Shown here piece by piece: positions 32,400 through 41,032 of a DNA stretch of 64,000 nt. The notes under the pieces are model-generated. The model did no database searches. It was not told where the DNA came from and saw only the letters and a list, made by a program, of their open reading frames with translations. The DNA comes from Acidimicrobiaceae bacterium (GTDB taxonomy: Bacteria > Actinomycetota > Acidimicrobiia > Acidimicrobiales > RAAP-2): the NCBI GenBank assembly GCA_027306605.1, contig DAHUZK010000074.1, forward strand, positions 1 through 64,000, in the 5' to 3' direction. The position numbers and the translations under genes are program-made. Within the stretch, counting starts at the first letter, position 1; every line of letters begins with the position of its first letter.

Positions 32400-33020
32400 A
32401 TCACACCGGGTACGGGGCAGCCCGAAGGAGGTCATGAGCGACGGTTCGAAGCGGACGATGCTCCTGACCCTGTCCATCGAGATCTCGATCGCAAGAAGAC
32501 CCATGGCATGAGCCGTTCCGGTCACCCCGTCGATGACGTAGAGACCCAATGCCGGCTGGCGGTTGGCCCCGGTGGGGAGCACGCGGTAGCGGCGTCCCTC
32601 GCGAAAGGCAACCTTCGAGAAGAACTCGGCGGATTCTCAGCCTGTCGCTCGACTGAGAGATCACGTGAGAGCGTCAGACGTGCTCGCTTGAGCATGCTGT
32701 GGACGGATTGCTCGGTGGTGTCCAGCATCCTCGCCACTTCGCGAGCGCTGTAGTCGAGCACGTCAGAGAGAATGACCGCGACACGCTGTCTGGGGGGCAG
32801 GAGTTGGAGCGCTGTCGTGAAGGCCAACGAGATCGTCGAGCAGAACGTCGGGATACGGCTCGAGCCACAGGACCTCGCCAAGTCGGGTCGGGGAAGGCAC
32901 GTCGAGATCTGGAGGTAGGGGAATCGTGGCCACGCCAGGCGCTGAGCAAGGTCTCTTGGACAGCATCGTCGGCGTCGGCGAAAGATCCGAGAAATCCGGC
33001 AGACCTTCGGGCATAGAGTC
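32400..33020 (-). pseudogene. Decayed ECF-type sigma factor (SigJ/SigG-like with SnoaL end)
   Basis: Pieces of one sigma factor appear in order in different frames. Region 2 is 'GSFADADDAVQETLLSAWRG', the linker is 'VLWLEPYPDVLLDDL', and region 4 is 'LQLLPPRQRVAVILSDVLDYSAREVARMLDTTEQSVHSMLKRAR'. The C-terminal SnoaL-like end is 'ANRQPALGLYVIDGVTG...VRFEPSLMTSFGLPRT'. At least two frameshifts separate them, and the start and middle of the SnoaL domain are missing. The normal protein would be about 320 residues. It is clearly non-functional as read, unless the assembly has several indels. Confidence 0.75.
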
Positions 33021-33214
33021 CGTGCTCCTCGCGTTTGTCCTCGAGCCTGTCCTCGCCCGGTCTCTCCGGGTGGCGTGCAGATATCGACACCGCCGAGAAC
33101 CCGAATTGGGCGCCGTCAGAGCGCCGAATTCGAGAGGCCACCGGTGCCTGCATCTCTGTCGCTCGATACGAGTGGCATCCGCCTTTCACAGCTCAGCATC
33201 CAAAGGAGAGCAAG

Positions 33215-33435: not shown

Positions 33436-34998
33436 TCAGCTCGTTCCGGGATCCTGTCGATTGGGGAGGACAGCCAGAACGACCACTCCGGCGATGCCGA
33501 CGATCACCGATGCGATGACCAGTGCCAGATCCATTCCCGTCACGAAGCCCTGCTTGGCTGACCCCGCCAGGACGTCGCCGAGTCGCCCGGGGACGTGCTG
33601 CGCGACGGCCAAGGCGCCACCGAGCGAGCCCAGGATCAGGTCCGCCACCGGGGGCGGCACCGAATGGCGACCGAGAAGGGGGCGCATGACGTCCTGGTAG
33701 CGGACGGTCAGTGCCGTGCCGAGCACCGCCACCCCCAATGCGCCGCCCATCTGCATGGAGGTGTCGCTCGTGGCGGACCCGACTCCGGCCTCCTCCTTGG
33801 GGAGCGAGCCCATGACGGATTCGGTCGACGGCGCCATGGCGAGGGCGAATCCCACGCCGAGCAAGACGAACCATGGGAGCAGATCGCCGTAGCGGTCGTG
33901 CACCGTCGTTCCCGAGAGCAGGCCGAGCGCGATCGCCACCAGGAACAATCCACCCGTGACGACGACCTTGGTACCCCACCGACGAGCGGCAACGATCGAG
34001 AGCGGCGCCACCACGAGGAGCACCGCCGCCAGCGGACCGATCGCCAGTCCGGTCTGCAGCGGGCTGTAGCCGAGGCAGAACTGCAGATATTGGGTCATCA
34101 GGAAGAACATCCCGAGCAGGGCGAAGAGCAGGAGCGCCAGCGACGCGATGGCGACGCTGTACCGCCGATTGCCGAAGAACCTCAGTGGAAGCATCGGATG
34201 GTCGCTGTGTCGTTCCCAGAGGACGAAAGCAGCGACGATGACCACGGAGCCGAAGAGGGCACCGAGCACGGCCGGGGAGGTCCAGGAGCGGCCCGGCGCC
34301 TCGATGATGGCCCAGAGCAGCAGACCGAATCCGAAGATCGAGAGCACCGCACCGACAGGGTCTGCACGTTCGAGCGCGGGATTCTTCGAATTCGGAACCA
34401 AGAGGGCGGTGGCCAGCAACCCGAGCGCGGCGATGGGGACGTTGATCAAGAAGACGGATCCCCACCAGTAGTGCACCAGCAAGAAGCCACCGAGGATGGG
34501 GCCGATGGCGACGCCGATGCCGGCCGTGCCCGACCAGAAGCCGATGGCCCGGGCACGATCACGGTCCCCGACGAAGACGTTGGTCAGTATCGACAGCGTG
34601 CACGGCATGAGAGCGGCCGCACCGACACCCATGACGGCTCGCGCCACCGTCAGCTGATCGGTCGAGCCGGAGAAGGCCGCGAACGCAGAGCCGGCTCCGA
34701 AGATCACCAGCCCGCTCATGAACACCCACTTGCGCCCGATGCGGTCTCCGAGGGAGCCGAGGCTGAAGAGGAGTCCGGCGAAGACCACGGCGTAGGCGTC
34801 GATGACCCACTGCAGCTGTGTCGTCGTCGCGTGGAGGCTCCGCACGATCGACGGCAGCGCCACGTTGAGGATGGTGTTGTCGAGGCTTATGAGCAGGAGC
34901 GTCACGCACAGGACGGCAAGCGTCGCCCACCGCCACCCGCCGCCGCTTCGGTTGGCCACCGACAATGCAGAGGGTCTCGATCGAGTCGTCGAACTCAC
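33436..34998 (-). CDS. MFS exporter, DHA2 family (paralogue 1)
   Basis: This 520-residue 14-helix transporter shows 'LLLISLDNTILNVALPSIVRSL' in helix 1, motif A 'SLGDRIGRKWVFMSG', and motif C 'SGTAGIGVAIGPILGGFLL'. 'GVGSATSDTSMQMGGALGVAVLGTAL' occurs in the C-terminal half. It is closely similar throughout to the exporter at 39204-40838, which points to gene duplication within the genome. Its substrate is unknown. Start ATG 34998. Confidence 0.9.
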   Translation of the reverse strand: MSSTTRSRPSALSVANRSGGGWRWATLAVLCVTLLLISLDNTILNVALPSIVRSLHATTTQLQWVIDAYAVVFAGLLFSLGSLGDRIGRKWVFMSGLVIFGAGSAFAAFSGSTDQLTVARAVMGVGAAALMPCTLSILTNVFVGDRDRARAIGFWSGTAGIGVAIGPILGGFLLVHYWWGSVFLINVPIAALGLLATALLVPNSKNPALERADPVGAVLSIFGFGLLLWAIIEAPGRSWTSPAVLGALFGSVVIVAAFVLWERHSDHPMLPLRFFGNRRYSVAIASLALLLFALLGMFFLMTQYLQFCLGYSPLQTGLAIGPLAAVLLVVAPLSIVAARRWGTKVVVTGGLFLVAIALGLLSGTTVHDRYGDLLPWFVLLGVGFALAMAPSTESVMGSLPKEEAGVGSATSDTSMQMGGALGVAVLGTALTVRYQDVMRPLLGRHSVPPPVADLILGSLGGALAVAQHVPGRLGDVLAGSAKQGFVTGMDLALVIASVIVGIAGVVVLAVLPNRQDPGTS

Positions 34999-35660: not shown

Positions 35661-36452
35661 ATGGAATTCTCCACGATCGAGGTGACGCACAGCGGGACGC
35701 GCGGCGCGATCACCCTCAACCGACCGGACAAGCTGAACCCGCTCGGTACCGTCATGCTGACGGAGCTGGTGAGGGCCGCCCGGCTCCTGGACGCACAGGC
35801 CGACGTCAAGGTCGTCGTCGTGAGCGGACGCGGTCGATCCTTCTCCGCGGGCGCCGACCTGGCGACCTTCTCGGGCGACGGCGGCCCGGCGACGTCCGCC
35901 GGCGCGGCGCGGGAGGCGGCCGATGCCGGACGCCTGATGGCGGAGGCCATCGAAGGACTGCGAGCCGTGACGGTGGTGCGACTCCAGGGCCACTGCGTCG
36001 GCGGGGCACTCGTCTTGGCCGCAGCGTGCGACTTGCGCGTCGCGTCCACGGATGCCCGTTTCTCGATCCCCGAAGTCGATCTCGGGATCCCCCTCGCCTG
36101 GGGCGGGATCCCCCGCTTGCTCCGCGAATTCGGACCGGCCGTGACCAAGGAGCTGGTGATGACGTGCAGGCCGTTCGGGGCTCACGAGGCACAGGCCGCT
36201 GGTTTTCTCAATCGGGTCGTCCCGGCAGGCGAGCTGGACGAGAGCGTGGAGACCCTCGTGCGCGAGCTCGAAGGCAAGTCACCGCTCACGCTGGCTGCGA
36301 CGAAGCGACACGTCAATGCGGTCACGGAGGGCATGGTCGGTACGTCTCGAGCTTGGAACGATGCCGACTCGCTCGTCACGGCCCTGCGCGATCCGGAATC
36401 TCGCGACGTGGCAAGGGCCTATCTGGCCCGATTCAGGGGAAACGACGCCTGA
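35661..36452 (+). CDS. Enoyl-CoA hydratase/isomerase family protein
   Basis: This 263-residue crotonase-fold enzyme shows 'RGAITLNRPDKLNPLG', the oxyanion-hole strand 'GRSFSAGADLATFSG', 'VVRLQGHCVGGALVLAAACDLRVAS' and 'FSIPEVDLGIPLAWGGIPRL'. The reaction on the CoA thioester cannot be fixed from sequence. It is divergent from the SRPBCC gene and upstream of the palindromic promoter of the next operon. Confidence 0.85.
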   Translation: MEFSTIEVTHSGTRGAITLNRPDKLNPLGTVMLTELVRAARLLDAQADVKVVVVSGRGRSFSAGADLATFSGDGGPATSAGAAREAADAGRLMAEAIEGLRAVTVVRLQGHCVGGALVLAAACDLRVASTDARFSIPEVDLGIPLAWGGIPRLLREFGPAVTKELVMTCRPFGAHEAQAAGFLNRVVPAGELDESVETLVRELEGKSPLTLAATKRHVNAVTEGMVGTSRAWNDADSLVTALRDPESRDVARAYLARFRGNDA

Positions 36453-36552
36453 TCGGCGTTCTGAGCCGCCGCCTGGGCCGGGCGACGGCTGCAGGGGCGT
36501 TGCGTGAACGGGTGCGTCCTGGTTCGGTCGGCGTCCGCCTGTCACGGATCGC

Positions 36553-36605
36553 TTGACAGGTAGCCGTATGGCTGCGTATTGTTATGCAGCCATACGGCTA
36601 CCTGT
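36553..36605 (+). promoter_or_regulatory. Promoter inside a 20-bp-arm perfect palindrome (probable ArsR operator)
   Basis: TTGACA (36553-36558) and TATTGT (36577-36582) are 18 bp apart. The arms ACAGGTAGCCGTATGGCTGC and its exact reverse complement flank a 10-nt centre that contains the -10 box. Each arm holds a near-palindromic 12-mer (AGCCGTATGGCT and AGCCATACGGCT). The downstream operon encodes an ArsR-type regulator. Confidence 0.65.
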
Positions 36606-36617
36606 TGAGGAGGACAC

Positions 36618-37055
36618 ATGCCCGACATCAGACACCGCGTGGAGATCGCCGCGCTCCCCGAAGAGGTCTACGAGGCCGTGGCCACGAAGGAGGGGCTGTC
36701 CGCCTGGTGGACCCGCGGCGGCGTCCAGGGCGACTCGGCGGAGGGGGCGAAGCTCGAGTTCTCGTTCGGCCGACCCGAACCGGCCGCCGTGATGGAGGTC
36801 ACGCGCTTGAGGCCACCCGAGCGGGTCTCGTGGAGATGCGTGGCAGGCGAGCCGGAGTGGGTCGGCACCGATCTCACCTTCGAGGTGACCCCTGGGGGAG
36901 CCGGCACGGCCGTGCTGTTCAGCCACACGGATTGGCGGAGCCCGAGCGAGTTCATGGCGCACTGCAGCGCGAGGTGGGCCTACTTCCTCCTGAGTCTGAA
37001 GAGCCACGTCGAGACCGGCCGGGGTACTCCGTTCCCTGAGGATCTGAAGTTCTGA
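36618..37055 (+). CDS. SRPBCC (AHSA1-like) domain protein
   Basis: This 145-residue AHSA1-type SRPBCC protein shows 'VEIAALPEEVYEAVATKEGLSAWWT', 'KLEFSFGRPEPAAVMEVTRLRPPERVSWRC' and 'FMAHCSARWAYFLLSLKSHVETGRGTPFP'. The C-terminal helix closely resembles the end of the fused protein encoded next. GAGGAGG lies 4 nt before ATG 36618. It is the first gene of a two-gene operon, only 8 nt from the ArsR-SRPBCC gene. The function is unknown, possibly small-ligand binding that signals to the regulator. Confidence 0.82.
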   Translation: MPDIRHRVEIAALPEEVYEAVATKEGLSAWWTRGGVQGDSAEGAKLEFSFGRPEPAAVMEVTRLRPPERVSWRCVAGEPEWVGTDLTFEVTPGGAGTAVLFSHTDWRSPSEFMAHCSARWAYFLLSLKSHVETGRGTPFPEDLKF

Positions 37056-37063
37056 CACCGTCG

Positions 37064-37873
37064 GTGGCGCCCTCCGGGGTGGACGTGTTCAAAGCTCTGG
37101 CCGACCCGAGCCGGCGCGTTCTGCTCGATCGCCTGAACGAGCGAAACGGTCAGAACCTGCGGCAGCTCTCCGAAGGTCTGAGCATGGCGAGGCAGTCCGT
37201 CAGCAAACACCTGGCCATCCTGGAGGCCGCCAACTTGGTGACGATCGTCCGAGTAGGCCGTCAAAAGCTCCATTACCTGAACGCCGTACCGATCAACGAG
37301 ATCGCCGAGCGCTGGATCAACCGCTACGACCGAGAACGAGTCCGAGCACTGTCGGACCTGAAACGAGCACTGGAGACACCGTCGATGGATGGCCCGCGAT
37401 TCGTCTACACCACCTACATCCGCACCACGCCCGAGCGCTTGTGGCAGGCCTTGACCGAACCGACGTTCACCGATCGCTGGTGGAAGATCACGTTCGAGAC
37501 CGACTGGAACGTGGGGTCGGCCATGACCTGGGACAACAACGGAATCGTGATCGCCGACCCCGAGCAGATCGTCCTCGAGTCCGACCCGTACCGGCGATTG
37601 GCCTACACCTGGCACACCTTCACGCCCGAGCTCAACGAGCGTCATCACTTCGGAGACGAGACGTTTGGCCGGCTCTCGACCGAGCGACGTTCTCGAGTCG
37701 CCTTCGACCTCGAGGCTGTGGGTGACATGGTCAAGCTGACCGTCGTGCACGACGACTTCGAGCCCGGGAGCATAGCGGCGACGATGGTGCAGAACGGCTG
37801 GCCCATCTTCTTGTCCAGTCTCAAGACGTTCCTCGAGACCGGTGAACCACTCCGAGCTCCTGGCTCAGCGTGA
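37064..37873 (+). CDS. ArsR-type HTH fused to SRPBCC domain
   Basis: This 269-residue two-domain regulator has an ArsR-family winged helix at residues 6-85 ('VFKALADPSRRVLLDRLNERNGQNLRQLSEGLSMARQSVSKHLAILEAANLVTIVRVGRQKLHYLNAVPI'). An AHSA1/SRPBCC ligand-binding fold occupies about 110-265 ('RFVYTTYIRTTPERLWQALTEPTFTDRWW'). There are no metal-binding Cys clusters, so a hydrophobic or organic ligand is likelier than a metal. It probably binds the palindrome upstream of the operon. Start GTG 37064; GTG 37079 is an alternative. Confidence 0.85.
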   Translation: MAPSGVDVFKALADPSRRVLLDRLNERNGQNLRQLSEGLSMARQSVSKHLAILEAANLVTIVRVGRQKLHYLNAVPINEIAERWINRYDRERVRALSDLKRALETPSMDGPRFVYTTYIRTTPERLWQALTEPTFTDRWWKITFETDWNVGSAMTWDNNGIVIADPEQIVLESDPYRRLAYTWHTFTPELNERHHFGDETFGRLSTERRSRVAFDLEAVGDMVKLTVVHDDFEPGSIAATMVQNGWPIFLSSLKTFLETGEPLRAPGSA

Positions 37874-37918: not shown

Positions 37919-39106
37919 TCAGCCGCGCGTTGCGGCGCAGACGCCCAACGTGAATATCTCTCGGAGCTGTGAGAACAGGACTGGACTCGTCTTCGGGGTG
38001 ATCTGACTGTTGACGGTGATGCTGACCGAGTTCCGCCCGTTGGCCGACGCCGCGATGAACTGGGTGTACCCCAACGTGTTGCCGGTGTGCCCGTAGACCG
38101 TCCCGCAGACGGTGCGATAGCGGAAGATCGCCAGCCCGGCCGCATTCGCCCCGGGACCCGGTGGTTCGGAGGAGCCATTCACGAAGTGGAACTGCTTGGC
38201 CCGGGTTGCGGCGTTGGTGGTGGCTCCCGTGGCGTAGCCCCGCACGAAGCGGTTGGCGTCGGCTGGCGTGGAGACCACTCCGCCCGAGGCCCAGGCCCAC
38301 CCGGCTGCGAGCTCCTGGCTCACGTCCTCTGGGCCCCCCGGGGCCGACGTCACGTAGCCGTGCAGGTAGGGCTCGGGCATGAGGGCGGAGGAGGGGAGGC
38401 TGGTCTCCGAGAGCCCGAGGGGTTGAGCCACGCTGCGCGAGAGGACGGTGCTGTAGCTCTCGTGGGATGCCGCCTCGATCATCAGGGCGATGACCACGTT
38501 GTCCGAATTGGAGTAGCGGTACTCGGTGCCTGGCTTGAATTCGAGGGGCTTGGCCGCGTTGAAGCACGGGGGCGTGGTGACGTAGCTCAAGAGCTGCCGG
38601 GGTGGCGGCGGGGTCTGGGGCGAAGCGGCGACGGCAGCGTGAAAGGAGGGGCAGGCGGAGAAGTCGGGGATGCCGCTCGTGTGGTTCAGCAGCTCGCTCA
38701 GGGTGACGACGTGCCAGGCCTCCGGCAGGCTGGGAAGCCACTTGCCGATGGAGTCGTCCAGCGCGAGGGTGTGCCTGGCGACGAGGGAGAGGGCCGCGGC
38801 GCCGCTGAATGCCTTGGCCACGCTGGCCACACGGATGTGATCGCCGGCGACCGGCTGTTGCTTGGAGGCCCCGACGACGGCGGTACCGGCGGTGATCGAT
38901 ATCGGGGTGTCGCCGTGCTGCACGACGGCGATCGCGCCGGGCGGTCCGTGGGGGCTCGAGACCAACCGCTCGAGTGCCGTCCGGAGCGCTGAGCTCGTGT
39001 TCGACCCGCGGGCGCCGGCAACTCCCGAGACGACCAGCGAGCACAGGGCGGCCACGGCGGCCGCACAGCTCAAGACGGCGAGTCTCCGCCGTTTCAGGAC
39101 GTCCAT
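37919..39106 (-). CDS. Exported serine hydrolase/D-alanyl-D-alanine carboxypeptidase-like
   Basis: This 395-residue member of the beta-lactamase class C/PBP-like superfamily has an N-terminal signal segment (LAVLSCAAAVAALCSLVVSGVAGA). 'VASVAKAFSGAAAL' contains the SxxK nucleophile, 'YRYSNSDNVVIALMIE' the YxN motif, and 'YGHTGNTLGYT' the HTG third motif. All three are intact. It is likely periplasmic or cell-surface, acting on peptidoglycan peptides or esters; the substrate is unproven. Start ATG 39106. It is convergent with the ArsR-SRPBCC gene. Confidence 0.85.
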   Translation of the reverse strand: MDVLKRRRLAVLSCAAAVAALCSLVVSGVAGARGSNTSSALRTALERLVSSPHGPPGAIAVVQHGDTPISITAGTAVVGASKQQPVAGDHIRVASVAKAFSGAAALSLVARHTLALDDSIGKWLPSLPEAWHVVTLSELLNHTSGIPDFSACPSFHAAVAASPQTPPPPRQLLSYVTTPPCFNAAKPLEFKPGTEYRYSNSDNVVIALMIEAASHESYSTVLSRSVAQPLGLSETSLPSSALMPEPYLHGYVTSAPGGPEDVSQELAAGWAWASGGVVSTPADANRFVRGYATGATTNAATRAKQFHFVNGSSEPPGPGANAAGLAIFRYRTVCGTVYGHTGNTLGYTQFIAASANGRNSVSITVNSQITPKTSPVLFSQLREIFTLGVCAATRG

Positions 39107-39203: not shown

Positions 39204-40838
39204 CTACCCCTCGCTCTCTCCGGGCCCGTCGCTGTGGCCCGACCTGCCGGAACCGGAGACGGGGCGGTTGGGCAGCCAGAGCAGCGCCACGACGGCGCCG
39301 GCGACGGCGACGCCCGCGGCTATCAGTGCCGCCAGATCCATCCCGGAGACGAAGGCGCTCCGGGCCGCCGTCTCGAGGGCACGCTCTTGGTGCGGCGGCA
39401 GATGGCGCGCCACGGCCAGCGCTCCGCCCAACGAACCGAGGACGAGCCGTTCGATGCCGGCGGGTACCTGGGTTCCGGCGTGCGCGAGCACGGGGAGCAG
39501 GTGCCCCTGGTAGCGGAAATTCAACGCTGTGCCGAGGACGCCGACGCCCAGTGCCCCTCCGATCTGCATGGAGGTGTCGTTCGTGGCCGAGCCGACCCCG
39601 GCCTCCTCGGTGGGCAGTGTGCTCATCACCGAGGCCGTGCACGGCGACAGGGTCAGGGCGATCCCGACGCCGAGGAGGAGGAAGGAGGGGAGGGCGTCAC
39701 CGTAGGTGGACGCCACCCCGGTGGTGGCGAACCAGCCGAGTCCGGCAGCCACCAATCCGAGGCCAGCGACGACGACGACCTTGGTCCCGATCCGGCGAGC
39801 CGCCAGGACGGCCGCGGGGGCGACGAGCAGCACGGCGGCGGCGATCGGCGCCACGCGCAGACCGGCCGCGAGCGGCGTGAGGCCCAGCGAGAACTGCAGG
39901 TACTGGGTGAGGAGGAAGAACATGCCCATCATGGCGAACATGGCCAGGCAGACGACGCCGACGGCCACGCTGTACCTGCGGCGCCGGAAGAAGTGCATCG
40001 GGAGCATGGGATGATCGGTGTGCTGTTCCCACGACACGAAGGCCACGGCGCCGGCCACGCCGATCACCAAGGGTGCGAGCACGGTCGGTGACGACCAGCC
40101 ACTTTGCGGTGCCTCCACGACGGACCACACCACCGTGGCCAGGGACACCATCGACAAGAGCGCGCCCACGGGGTCCGGCCGGCGGGCGTCGGGCGTCCGT
40201 GAATTCGGCACCAGCCATGCCGCGGCGACGAGACCGGCCACGACGATGGGGACGTTGACGAGGAAGACCGAGCCCCACCAGTAGCGTGCCAGGAGCAGCC
40301 CGCCGAGAATCGGACCGAGAGCGACGCCGAGTCCGGCGGTGCCGGACCAGACGCCGATCGCCCGTGCCCGTTCGTTCTGGCCGGGGAACACGTTGGTCAG
40401 GATGGAGAGGGTGCCGGGCATGAGCGCGGCCGCGCCGATACCCATCACGCCGCGAGCGGCTATCAAGAGGGAAGGGCTGCCGGACCAGGCAGCGAACGCG
40501 GAGCCGGCTCCGAAGACGAAGAGGCCGGCCATGAACACCCACTTGCGCCCGAGCCGGTCGCCGAGCGCGCCCATCGTCAGTAGGAGCCCGGCGAACGTGA
40601 GGGCATAGACGTCGACCGCCCACTGCAGCTGCGCAGATGTGGCACCCAGGCTGCGAACGATGGAGGGGAGCGCGACGTTCAAGATCGTGTTGTCGAGGCT
40701 GATCACGAGTAGCGTGACGCACAGGACCGCCAGGACGGCGGGACGGTGCACCCTGGCCCTGCGGCCACCGGGACCGCCGTCCTCGCGTCCCTGTTCCCGG
40801 GCACGCGTGGTCGTGCTGGCCGTCGCTGTATTCGTCAC
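39204..40838 (-). CDS. MFS exporter, DHA2 family (paralogue 2)
   Basis: This 544-residue 14-helix transporter is strongly similar to 33436-34998: 'TLLVISLDNTILNVALPSIVRSLGATSAQLQWAVDVYAL', 'GALGDRLGRKWVFMAG', 'SGTAGLGVALGPILGGLLL', 'GVGSATNDTSMQIGGALGVGVLGTAL'. The track start at 41021 is too early; GTG 40838 has GGAGG at good distance. The protein is probably a drug or metabolite exporter. The C-terminal 'NRPVSGSGRSGHSDGPGESEG' tail is hydrophilic. Confidence 0.9.
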   Translation of the reverse strand: MTNTATASTTTRAREQGREDGGPGGRRARVHRPAVLAVLCVTLLVISLDNTILNVALPSIVRSLGATSAQLQWAVDVYALTFAGLLLTMGALGDRLGRKWVFMAGLFVFGAGSAFAAWSGSPSLLIAARGVMGIGAAALMPGTLSILTNVFPGQNERARAIGVWSGTAGLGVALGPILGGLLLARYWWGSVFLVNVPIVVAGLVAAAWLVPNSRTPDARRPDPVGALLSMVSLATVVWSVVEAPQSGWSSPTVLAPLVIGVAGAVAFVSWEQHTDHPMLPMHFFRRRRYSVAVGVVCLAMFAMMGMFFLLTQYLQFSLGLTPLAAGLRVAPIAAAVLLVAPAAVLAARRIGTKVVVVAGLGLVAAGLGWFATTGVASTYGDALPSFLLLGVGIALTLSPCTASVMSTLPTEEAGVGSATNDTSMQIGGALGVGVLGTALNFRYQGHLLPVLAHAGTQVPAGIERLVLGSLGGALAVARHLPPHQERALETAARSAFVSGMDLAALIAAGVAVAGAVVALLWLPNRPVSGSGRSGHSDGPGESEG

Positions 40839-41032
40839 GTCTTGGCCCTCCCGTGCATGTGGGCCGCCCGAAGCGAATCGGGGTCTTGCGGTGTCCGGCG
40901 GCCCGAGCTCACGCAGTCGATACCCCGCCGACCGGCACTCCAAGGCCGAGCCCCAAGGGAGGATCCAAGGGAGGAAGGGACGCGAAGCTGCTGCTCTCGA
41001 CGCCGTACCGTCACGAAGCACGCAATTTCGTC

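Follow-up and report, generated by a model that had tools for sequence, protein, structure and literature searches.

Small operons in which an ArsR-type regulator is paired with a protein of the Aha1 family (ArsR-COG3832 gene pairs) were described in a 2009 survey, which raised a toxin–antitoxin role as one option for them (Makarova et al., 2009; PMC2701414); the passages of that survey on these modules contain no operator or recognition code. Such ArsR-AHSA1 modules occur widely, yet the open-licence literature holds no characterisation of them. For the ArsR-type protein NolR (PDB 4OMY, 4OMZ, 4ON0), base contacts are made mostly through helix α4, with Gln56 at the N-terminal end of that helix (PMC8960804).

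The module analysed here lies in a 64,000-nt stretch of DNA (hereafter, the window) and belongs to the ArsR-COG3832 pairs as these are described in the passages of PMC2701414: an ArsR regulator devoid of metal-binding motifs adjoins, and is fused with, an AHSA1 protein. Its operon is preceded by a long palindrome that overlaps the promoter.

The promoter, the palindrome and the operon

The longest exact inverted repeat anywhere in the window (36556–36605) consists of the 20-bp arms ACAGGTAGCCGTATGGCTGC (36556–36575) and GCAGCCATACGGCTACCTGT (36586–36605), which are, as pointed out in the initial annotation, exact inverses around a 10-nt centre, GTATTGTTAT. In 12 first-order Markov simulations of the window, the longest inverted repeat never exceeded 13 bp. 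A promoter scan detected a sigma70-type promoter on the plus strand, TTGACA (36553–36558) and TATTGT (36577–36582) separated by an 18-bp spacer, which matches at 10 of 12 bases and is the sole promoter-like match in 36380–37120; its -35 hexamer, whose register is kept upstream of orthologs, shares 3 nt with the left arm, in line with the overlap described earlier. The predicted transcription start (∼ 36588–36590) lies inside the right arm, and inspection of the sequence revealed a Shine–Dalgarno-like GAGGAGGA at 36607–36614 of the plus strand.

The repeat holds two putative operator sites, neither of which has a strand. Site 1, GTAGCC-GTAT-GGCTGC (36560–36575), fills the -35/-10 spacer and is kept in both position and sequence in orthologs; site 2, GCAGCC-ATAC-GGCTAC (36586–36601), spans the predicted transcription start and corresponds to the second dyad of double-site relatives. 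The dyad operator thus overlaps the promoter of its own operon, as is characteristic of autoregulatory ArsR operons. The near-palindromic 12-mers that had been noted in the two arms are indeed present, AGCCGTATGGCT at 36562–36573 and AGCCATACGGCT at 36588–36599, but the conserved unit, as delineated by ortholog comparison, is wider, namely the 16-mer GCARCC-N4-GGYTGC. Nowhere else does the host genome assembly (3.36 Mb, 81% complete) contain an exact AGCCRTAYGGCT site. Two other matches to GYARCCNNNNGGYTRC in the same genome (C19:10592 and C29:12442) have neither a TTGACA context nor an adjoining relative.

The operon has the content originally proposed, a gene for a free SRPBCC protein and, behind it, one for an ArsR-SRPBCC fusion, both on the plus strand. 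The former (36618–37055) encodes a 145-aa SRPBCC/AHSA1 protein (Pfam PF08327, E 8e-13) whose structural model (pLDDT 83.5) finds its best fold match in 2m89. The latter (37064–37873) encodes a 269-aa predicted autorepressor, in which HTH_20 (36.5 bits), HTH_5 (26.2 bits) and AHSA1 all score above the Pfam cut-offs; its HTH, which is typical of the ArsR/SmtB winged-helix proteins, also matches ArsR proteins in the PDB. In the AF2 model of the fusion (pLDDT 75.7, with a weaker N-terminal part), the HTH and wing are present at moderate confidence and as a monomer, and the recognition helix comprises residues 43–55 (RQSVSKHLAILEA, codons at 37190–37228, plus strand). The fused SRPBCC part has fold matches to Mll2253 (3q63), 2m89, CalU16 and DynU16. 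The fusion contains no cysteine at all, which bears out the reported absence of a metal-binding cysteine cluster; it carries no metal-binding Cys motif such as the α3 site of ArsR/SmtB metal sensors and is therefore no classical metal sensor, its score exceeding the cut-off of the NCBIfam ‘HTH_metalloreg’ model by only 0.6 bits. The suggestion that the free SRPBCC protein is a second ligand-binding copy did not stand up. Because it aligns with the fused domain at 29% identity over 49 residues only, it is no duplicate of the sensor domain; judged by sequence, it is a distant AHSA1 relative of that domain and is closer to the Colwellia protein 2m89.

The regulator and SRPBCC are encoded by separate adjacent coding regions in proteobacteria and are mostly fused in Actinomycetota, with an extra SRPBCC gene between the operator and the fusion in Acidimicrobiia and Nocardia, as in the window. 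The free SRPBCC gene is the sole conserved neighbour of the regulator; the other flanking genes vary. The flanking MFS, β-lactamase-like and enoyl-CoA hydratase genes were considered as parts of the module and rejected, as they are not conserved beside orthologs. The HTH diverges less than the SRPBCC domain in the majority of relatives (e.g. 62–81% vs 35–64% identity outside Acidimicrobiia).

Several variations on this arrangement were seen. In L021, from the same genus, one operon (547–2274) combines a free SRPBCC, a stand-alone sensor-type SRPBCC that is 67% identical to the fused domain of the window, and an ArsR-SRPBCC fusion. In the actinomycete loci L051 and L061, the fusion is followed by another gene that was judged SRPBCC-like by inspection. 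In the window itself, two similar genes that resemble multidrug-efflux MFS transporters (named by eye; 33436–34998 and 39204–41021, minus strand) flank the module, with a β-lactamase-fold serine hydrolase (37919–39106, Pfam) between them; these neighbours, which are not conserved near orthologs, are suggestive of drug handling. Further away, at 32522–33189 of the minus strand, a sigma-factor-like region 4 split over several frames (PRQRVAVILSDVLDYSAREVARMLDTTEQSVHSMLKRAR) was read by eye and is possibly a frameshifted sigma factor gene.

Operator conservation and the recognition helix

Orthologs were drawn from 172 same-family genomes and from GTDB contigs. The motif was looked for upstream of the orthologous operons and proved to be conserved: the recurring element is TTGACA-N-GCARCC-NNNN-GGYTGC-N-TAT, in which a single dyad fills the -35/-10 spacer. 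Almost every ortholog has this dyad within its promoter, at an unchanged distance from the -35; the orthologs concerned come from Acidimicrobiia, Thermoleophilia, Actinomycetes, Rhizobiales, Burkholderiales and one Acidobacteriota MAG, so that the dyad spreads over Actinomycetota, Alpha- and Betaproteobacteria. TTGACA (5–6 of its 6 bases) stands 1 nt before the dyad in nearly all of them, and 93 of 100 relatives have a -10 that begins with TAT or TAA 1 nt past site 1. Across 397 genomes of the phylum, the pattern TTGACANGCARCCNNNNGGYTGC had 5 matches, every one of them adjoining an ArsR relative, and its reversed control had none. There were also three matches in viral contigs, two of them upstream of a relative. 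The same operator accompanies ArsR-SRPBCC modules on two IMG/VR contigs classed as viral, L133, where two SRPBCC regions lie in tandem, and L134, which is truncated by the contig end; according to the passages of the 2009 survey on these modules, none was detected in phage genomes (PMC2701414).

A second dyad is found downstream of the first in many promoters of Actinomycetota, at a spacing of 25–36 bp and with no fixed helical phase; with the window included, the double-site set comprised 24 non-redundant promoters. Only site 1 is present in Mesorhizobium and in most of the other relatives from proteobacteria. The family can do without an intact site 2, given that L017, L019 and Mesorhizobium have a degenerate one or none. 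Close relatives, with proteins ∼ 80% identical, have either two imperfect dyads at different spacing or a single dyad. Thus, the long perfect palindrome is not conserved even at this distance; it is incidental and does not qualify as the functional unit. Two promoter variants are worth recording: in L073, L077 and other Mesorhizobium loci (near 2455–2505) only a few bases separate the -10 and the start codon, so that the single-site version may give rise to a leaderless transcript, and in L130 (around 1500–1540) a two-site operator lies in a promoter that reads out on both strands (TTGACG/TTGACA at the ends), with an ArsR-SRPBCC gene on one side and a divergent gene on the other.

With paralogs added to the collection, we then compared proteins with operators, taking for each protein the best palindrome located 1 nt after a -35 while leaving the half-site unspecified. 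A -35-anchored dyad was found for 100 of 112 distinct proteins; for the other 12, some of which are at contig ends, no operator was found. Among the 100 protein–operator pairs, many of which come from Mesorhizobium, residues Q, F and V at position 44 go with CA, TG and AA, respectively, at bases 2–3; S rather than A/G at position 45 with G rather than A at base 4; and K or Q at position 48 with C or G at base 5. The combinations seen are RQA..K with GCAACC, RQS..K with GCAGCC, RQA..Q with GCAAGT, RQS..Q with GCAGGT and RFG..K with GTGACC. The helix rule gets all five bases right in 187 of 200 half-sites (mean of 51 for shuffled proteins), a measure of fit and not a blind test, as the rule was derived on overlapping loci. 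All 14 clusters at 75% identity follow the code. On a tree built with the code residues masked, where each position underwent only 3–6 independent residue changes, the residue changed on the same branch as the base in 4 of 4 cases for S45 and base 4 (P 6e-7), in 3 of 4 for K/Q48 and base 5 (P 1.3e-5) and in 2 of 3 for Q/F/V44 and bases 2–3 (P 9e-4). Given that the AF2 helix spans residues 43–55, all three positions are at its N-terminal end, and the modelled recognition helix corresponds to the base-contacting helix of NolR, which supports its role.

The window protein (ARQSVSKHL), with Q44, S45 and K48 as its specificity positions, is predicted to recognise GCAGCC. Of its four half-sites, the palindrome has two that are exactly GCAGCC and two that read GTAGCC, one base off; site 1 has one half-site of each kind. 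A paralog from the same genome (L002, G000 contig C3:88093–88824, 45% identical) has the helix RFGVMKHL and the dyad GTGACT-N4-AGTCAC in the same promoter register; by prediction, it and the operon in the window are insulated from each other. Exceptions to the code are L019 (TRQS with GCAACC) and the mixed half-sites of L021 and L023; these carry T or S at position 42 whereas the other proteins with S45 and K48 that were examined carry A42, and a part for residue 42 in setting base 4 is therefore possible. The V44 class is represented by L152 only, as a pattern-first search for RV/GAAACC gave no supporting locus: there was no match in 347 genomes, and the four matches in viral contigs were all inside open coding frames. 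The GTGAC pattern had no match in viral contigs.

Covariation thus indicates that positions 44, 45 and 48 of the protein largely dictate the operator bases, a code that came as an unexpected gain beyond the original observation of a palindrome. It appears quite probable that the ArsR-AHSA1 family as a whole uses a modular 44/45/48 code, to which residue 42 may add, together with a spacer-embedded dyad, so that operators would be readable from the protein and paralogs would be insulated while the SRPBCC domain diverges faster.

Proposed regulation and alternative readings

In our preferred reading, which we hold at a probability of roughly 0.87, the palindrome would be a double operator by which the fusion protein represses its own operon, and the free SRPBCC protein would bind or neutralise the inducing compound. 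Operator geometry together with helix covariation strongly supports such putative autorepression by the ArsR-SRPBCC protein; the sign of the regulation is read from the geometry only, as activators also exist in the ArsR family. The initial proposal of an ArsR operator with space for one dimer on either side of the -10 gains support from the ortholog motif and from the helix covariation.

The comparison itself shows the promoter, the paired dyads, their conservation and their covariation with the helix; we infer repression, dimer occupancy, the ligand and the role of the free SRPBCC protein as follows. One dimer would sit on site 1 in the -35/-10 spacer and another on site 2 over the transcription start, excluding RNA polymerase and keeping the operon self-repressed. 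Of the half-site GCAGCC, Q44 would read bases 2–3 (CA), S45 base 4 (G) and K48 base 5 (C). A hydrophobic organic molecule held in the fused SRPBCC domain would weaken the grip on DNA; an organic ligand for this domain is plausible from its fold and from the lack of metal ligands in the protein. Induction would then yield more repressor and more of the free SRPBCC protein, which may bind or neutralise the compound.

Instead of binding protein as DNA, a long inverted repeat could also work at the RNA level, as a hairpin (an attenuator, insulator or terminator). In a read-through RNA, the arms would pair into a very stable stem (-54.1 kcal/mol, z -7.9) that extends to the Shine–Dalgarno region. 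However, the transcript from the operon's own promoter is predicted to start within the right arm and its fold is unremarkable (z -0.42); no U-tract follows the full stem, and in relatives the two sites need not be complementary, each keeping its own dyad at a spacing of 25–36 bp, while many relatives carry site 1 only. With the left arm outside the operon's own predicted transcript and the long stem not conserved, i.e. with no conserved stem and U-tract in the operon transcript, the hairpin reading was rejected as most improbable. The sites might instead bind some other regulator, such as the paralog or an unlinked ArsR, and ArsR paralogs are common in these genomes; this, too, has very little chance of being correct, given that the paralog differs in its helix and has a GTGACT operator of its own, that the half-site follows the helix of the adjacent gene across the 100 pairs and that the exact 12-mer occurs at no other place in the assembly.

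Autoregulated paired operators are typical of toxin–antitoxin modules, so the fusion operon could be taken for one, with SRPBCC as the toxin and ArsR as the antitoxin and repressor, which would leave the operator reading unchanged. In the 2009 survey, ArsR-COG3832 is listed among the TAS-like operons, with lineage-specific expansions and no metal motif, but its authors, in the passages concerned, thought antibiotic resistance more plausible (PMC2701414). In Actinomycetota the regulator and AHSA1 form one fused protein, which another AHSA1 gene can precede; a sensor fits this better than a separable toxin, and we regard a toxin–antitoxin pair as unlikely, if slightly less so than the two readings above.

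In the double-site promoters, the four central bases of the two sites are exact inverses in 7 of 24 cases, against 1.1 expected when partners are shuffled (6 of 23 without the window, P 0.0002), and exact direct matches number two. In the window, the repeat extends even to the ACA of the -35 hexamer, which recurs at the opposite end without any obvious function. Template switching turns imperfect inverted repeats into perfect ones (quasipalindrome mutations), according to passages of PMC7202029 and PMC3820800. Such a process fits the pattern seen here: the best explanation for the perfect 20-bp arms would be that template switching homogenised two similar inverted dyads, and not that the arms function as a hairpin, and the excess of inverted centres would be a natural case of an operator pair apparently reshaped by a mutational process and not by selection.

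Comparison with known systems

Searches of the open-licence literature with the operator strings and for an ArsR/SRPBCC operator or recognition code returned no match, so that, within this body of papers, the operator and code have provisionally not been described before. For the ArsR-AHSA1 family as a whole, a conserved operator and a readable code supply the DNA side of the problem. A known operator eases the construction of reporter strains and makes ligand screens possible, and the code predicts that K48Q would swap specificity from GCAGCC to GCAGGT.

Like the ArsR-COG3832 modules in the passages of PMC2701414, the operon combines an ArsR protein without metal motifs and an AHSA1/SRPBCC protein in a small, patchily distributed, multicopy unit, but here AHSA1 and the regulator are parts of one fusion protein, whose gene lies behind a second, distantly related AHSA1 gene. 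NolR, a weak sequence match (E 0.011), shares the cysteine-free winged helix (PMC8960804) but is a global symbiosis regulator of 118 residues with no SRPBCC domain and a different motif, (A/T)TTAG-N9-A(T/A). The closest solved relative of the free SRPBCC protein, the Aha1-domain protein of Colwellia psychrerythraea (2m89; E 8e-35, TM 0.81 by query), is not fused to a regulator. CalU16 and DynU16 (PDB 4fpw, 2luz, 6v04), which are SRPBCC proteins from enediyne clusters, match the fold of both SRPBCC domains, which fits a drug-binding reading, but at only ∼ 20% identity and with no ArsR fusion they are not evidence for the same ligand.
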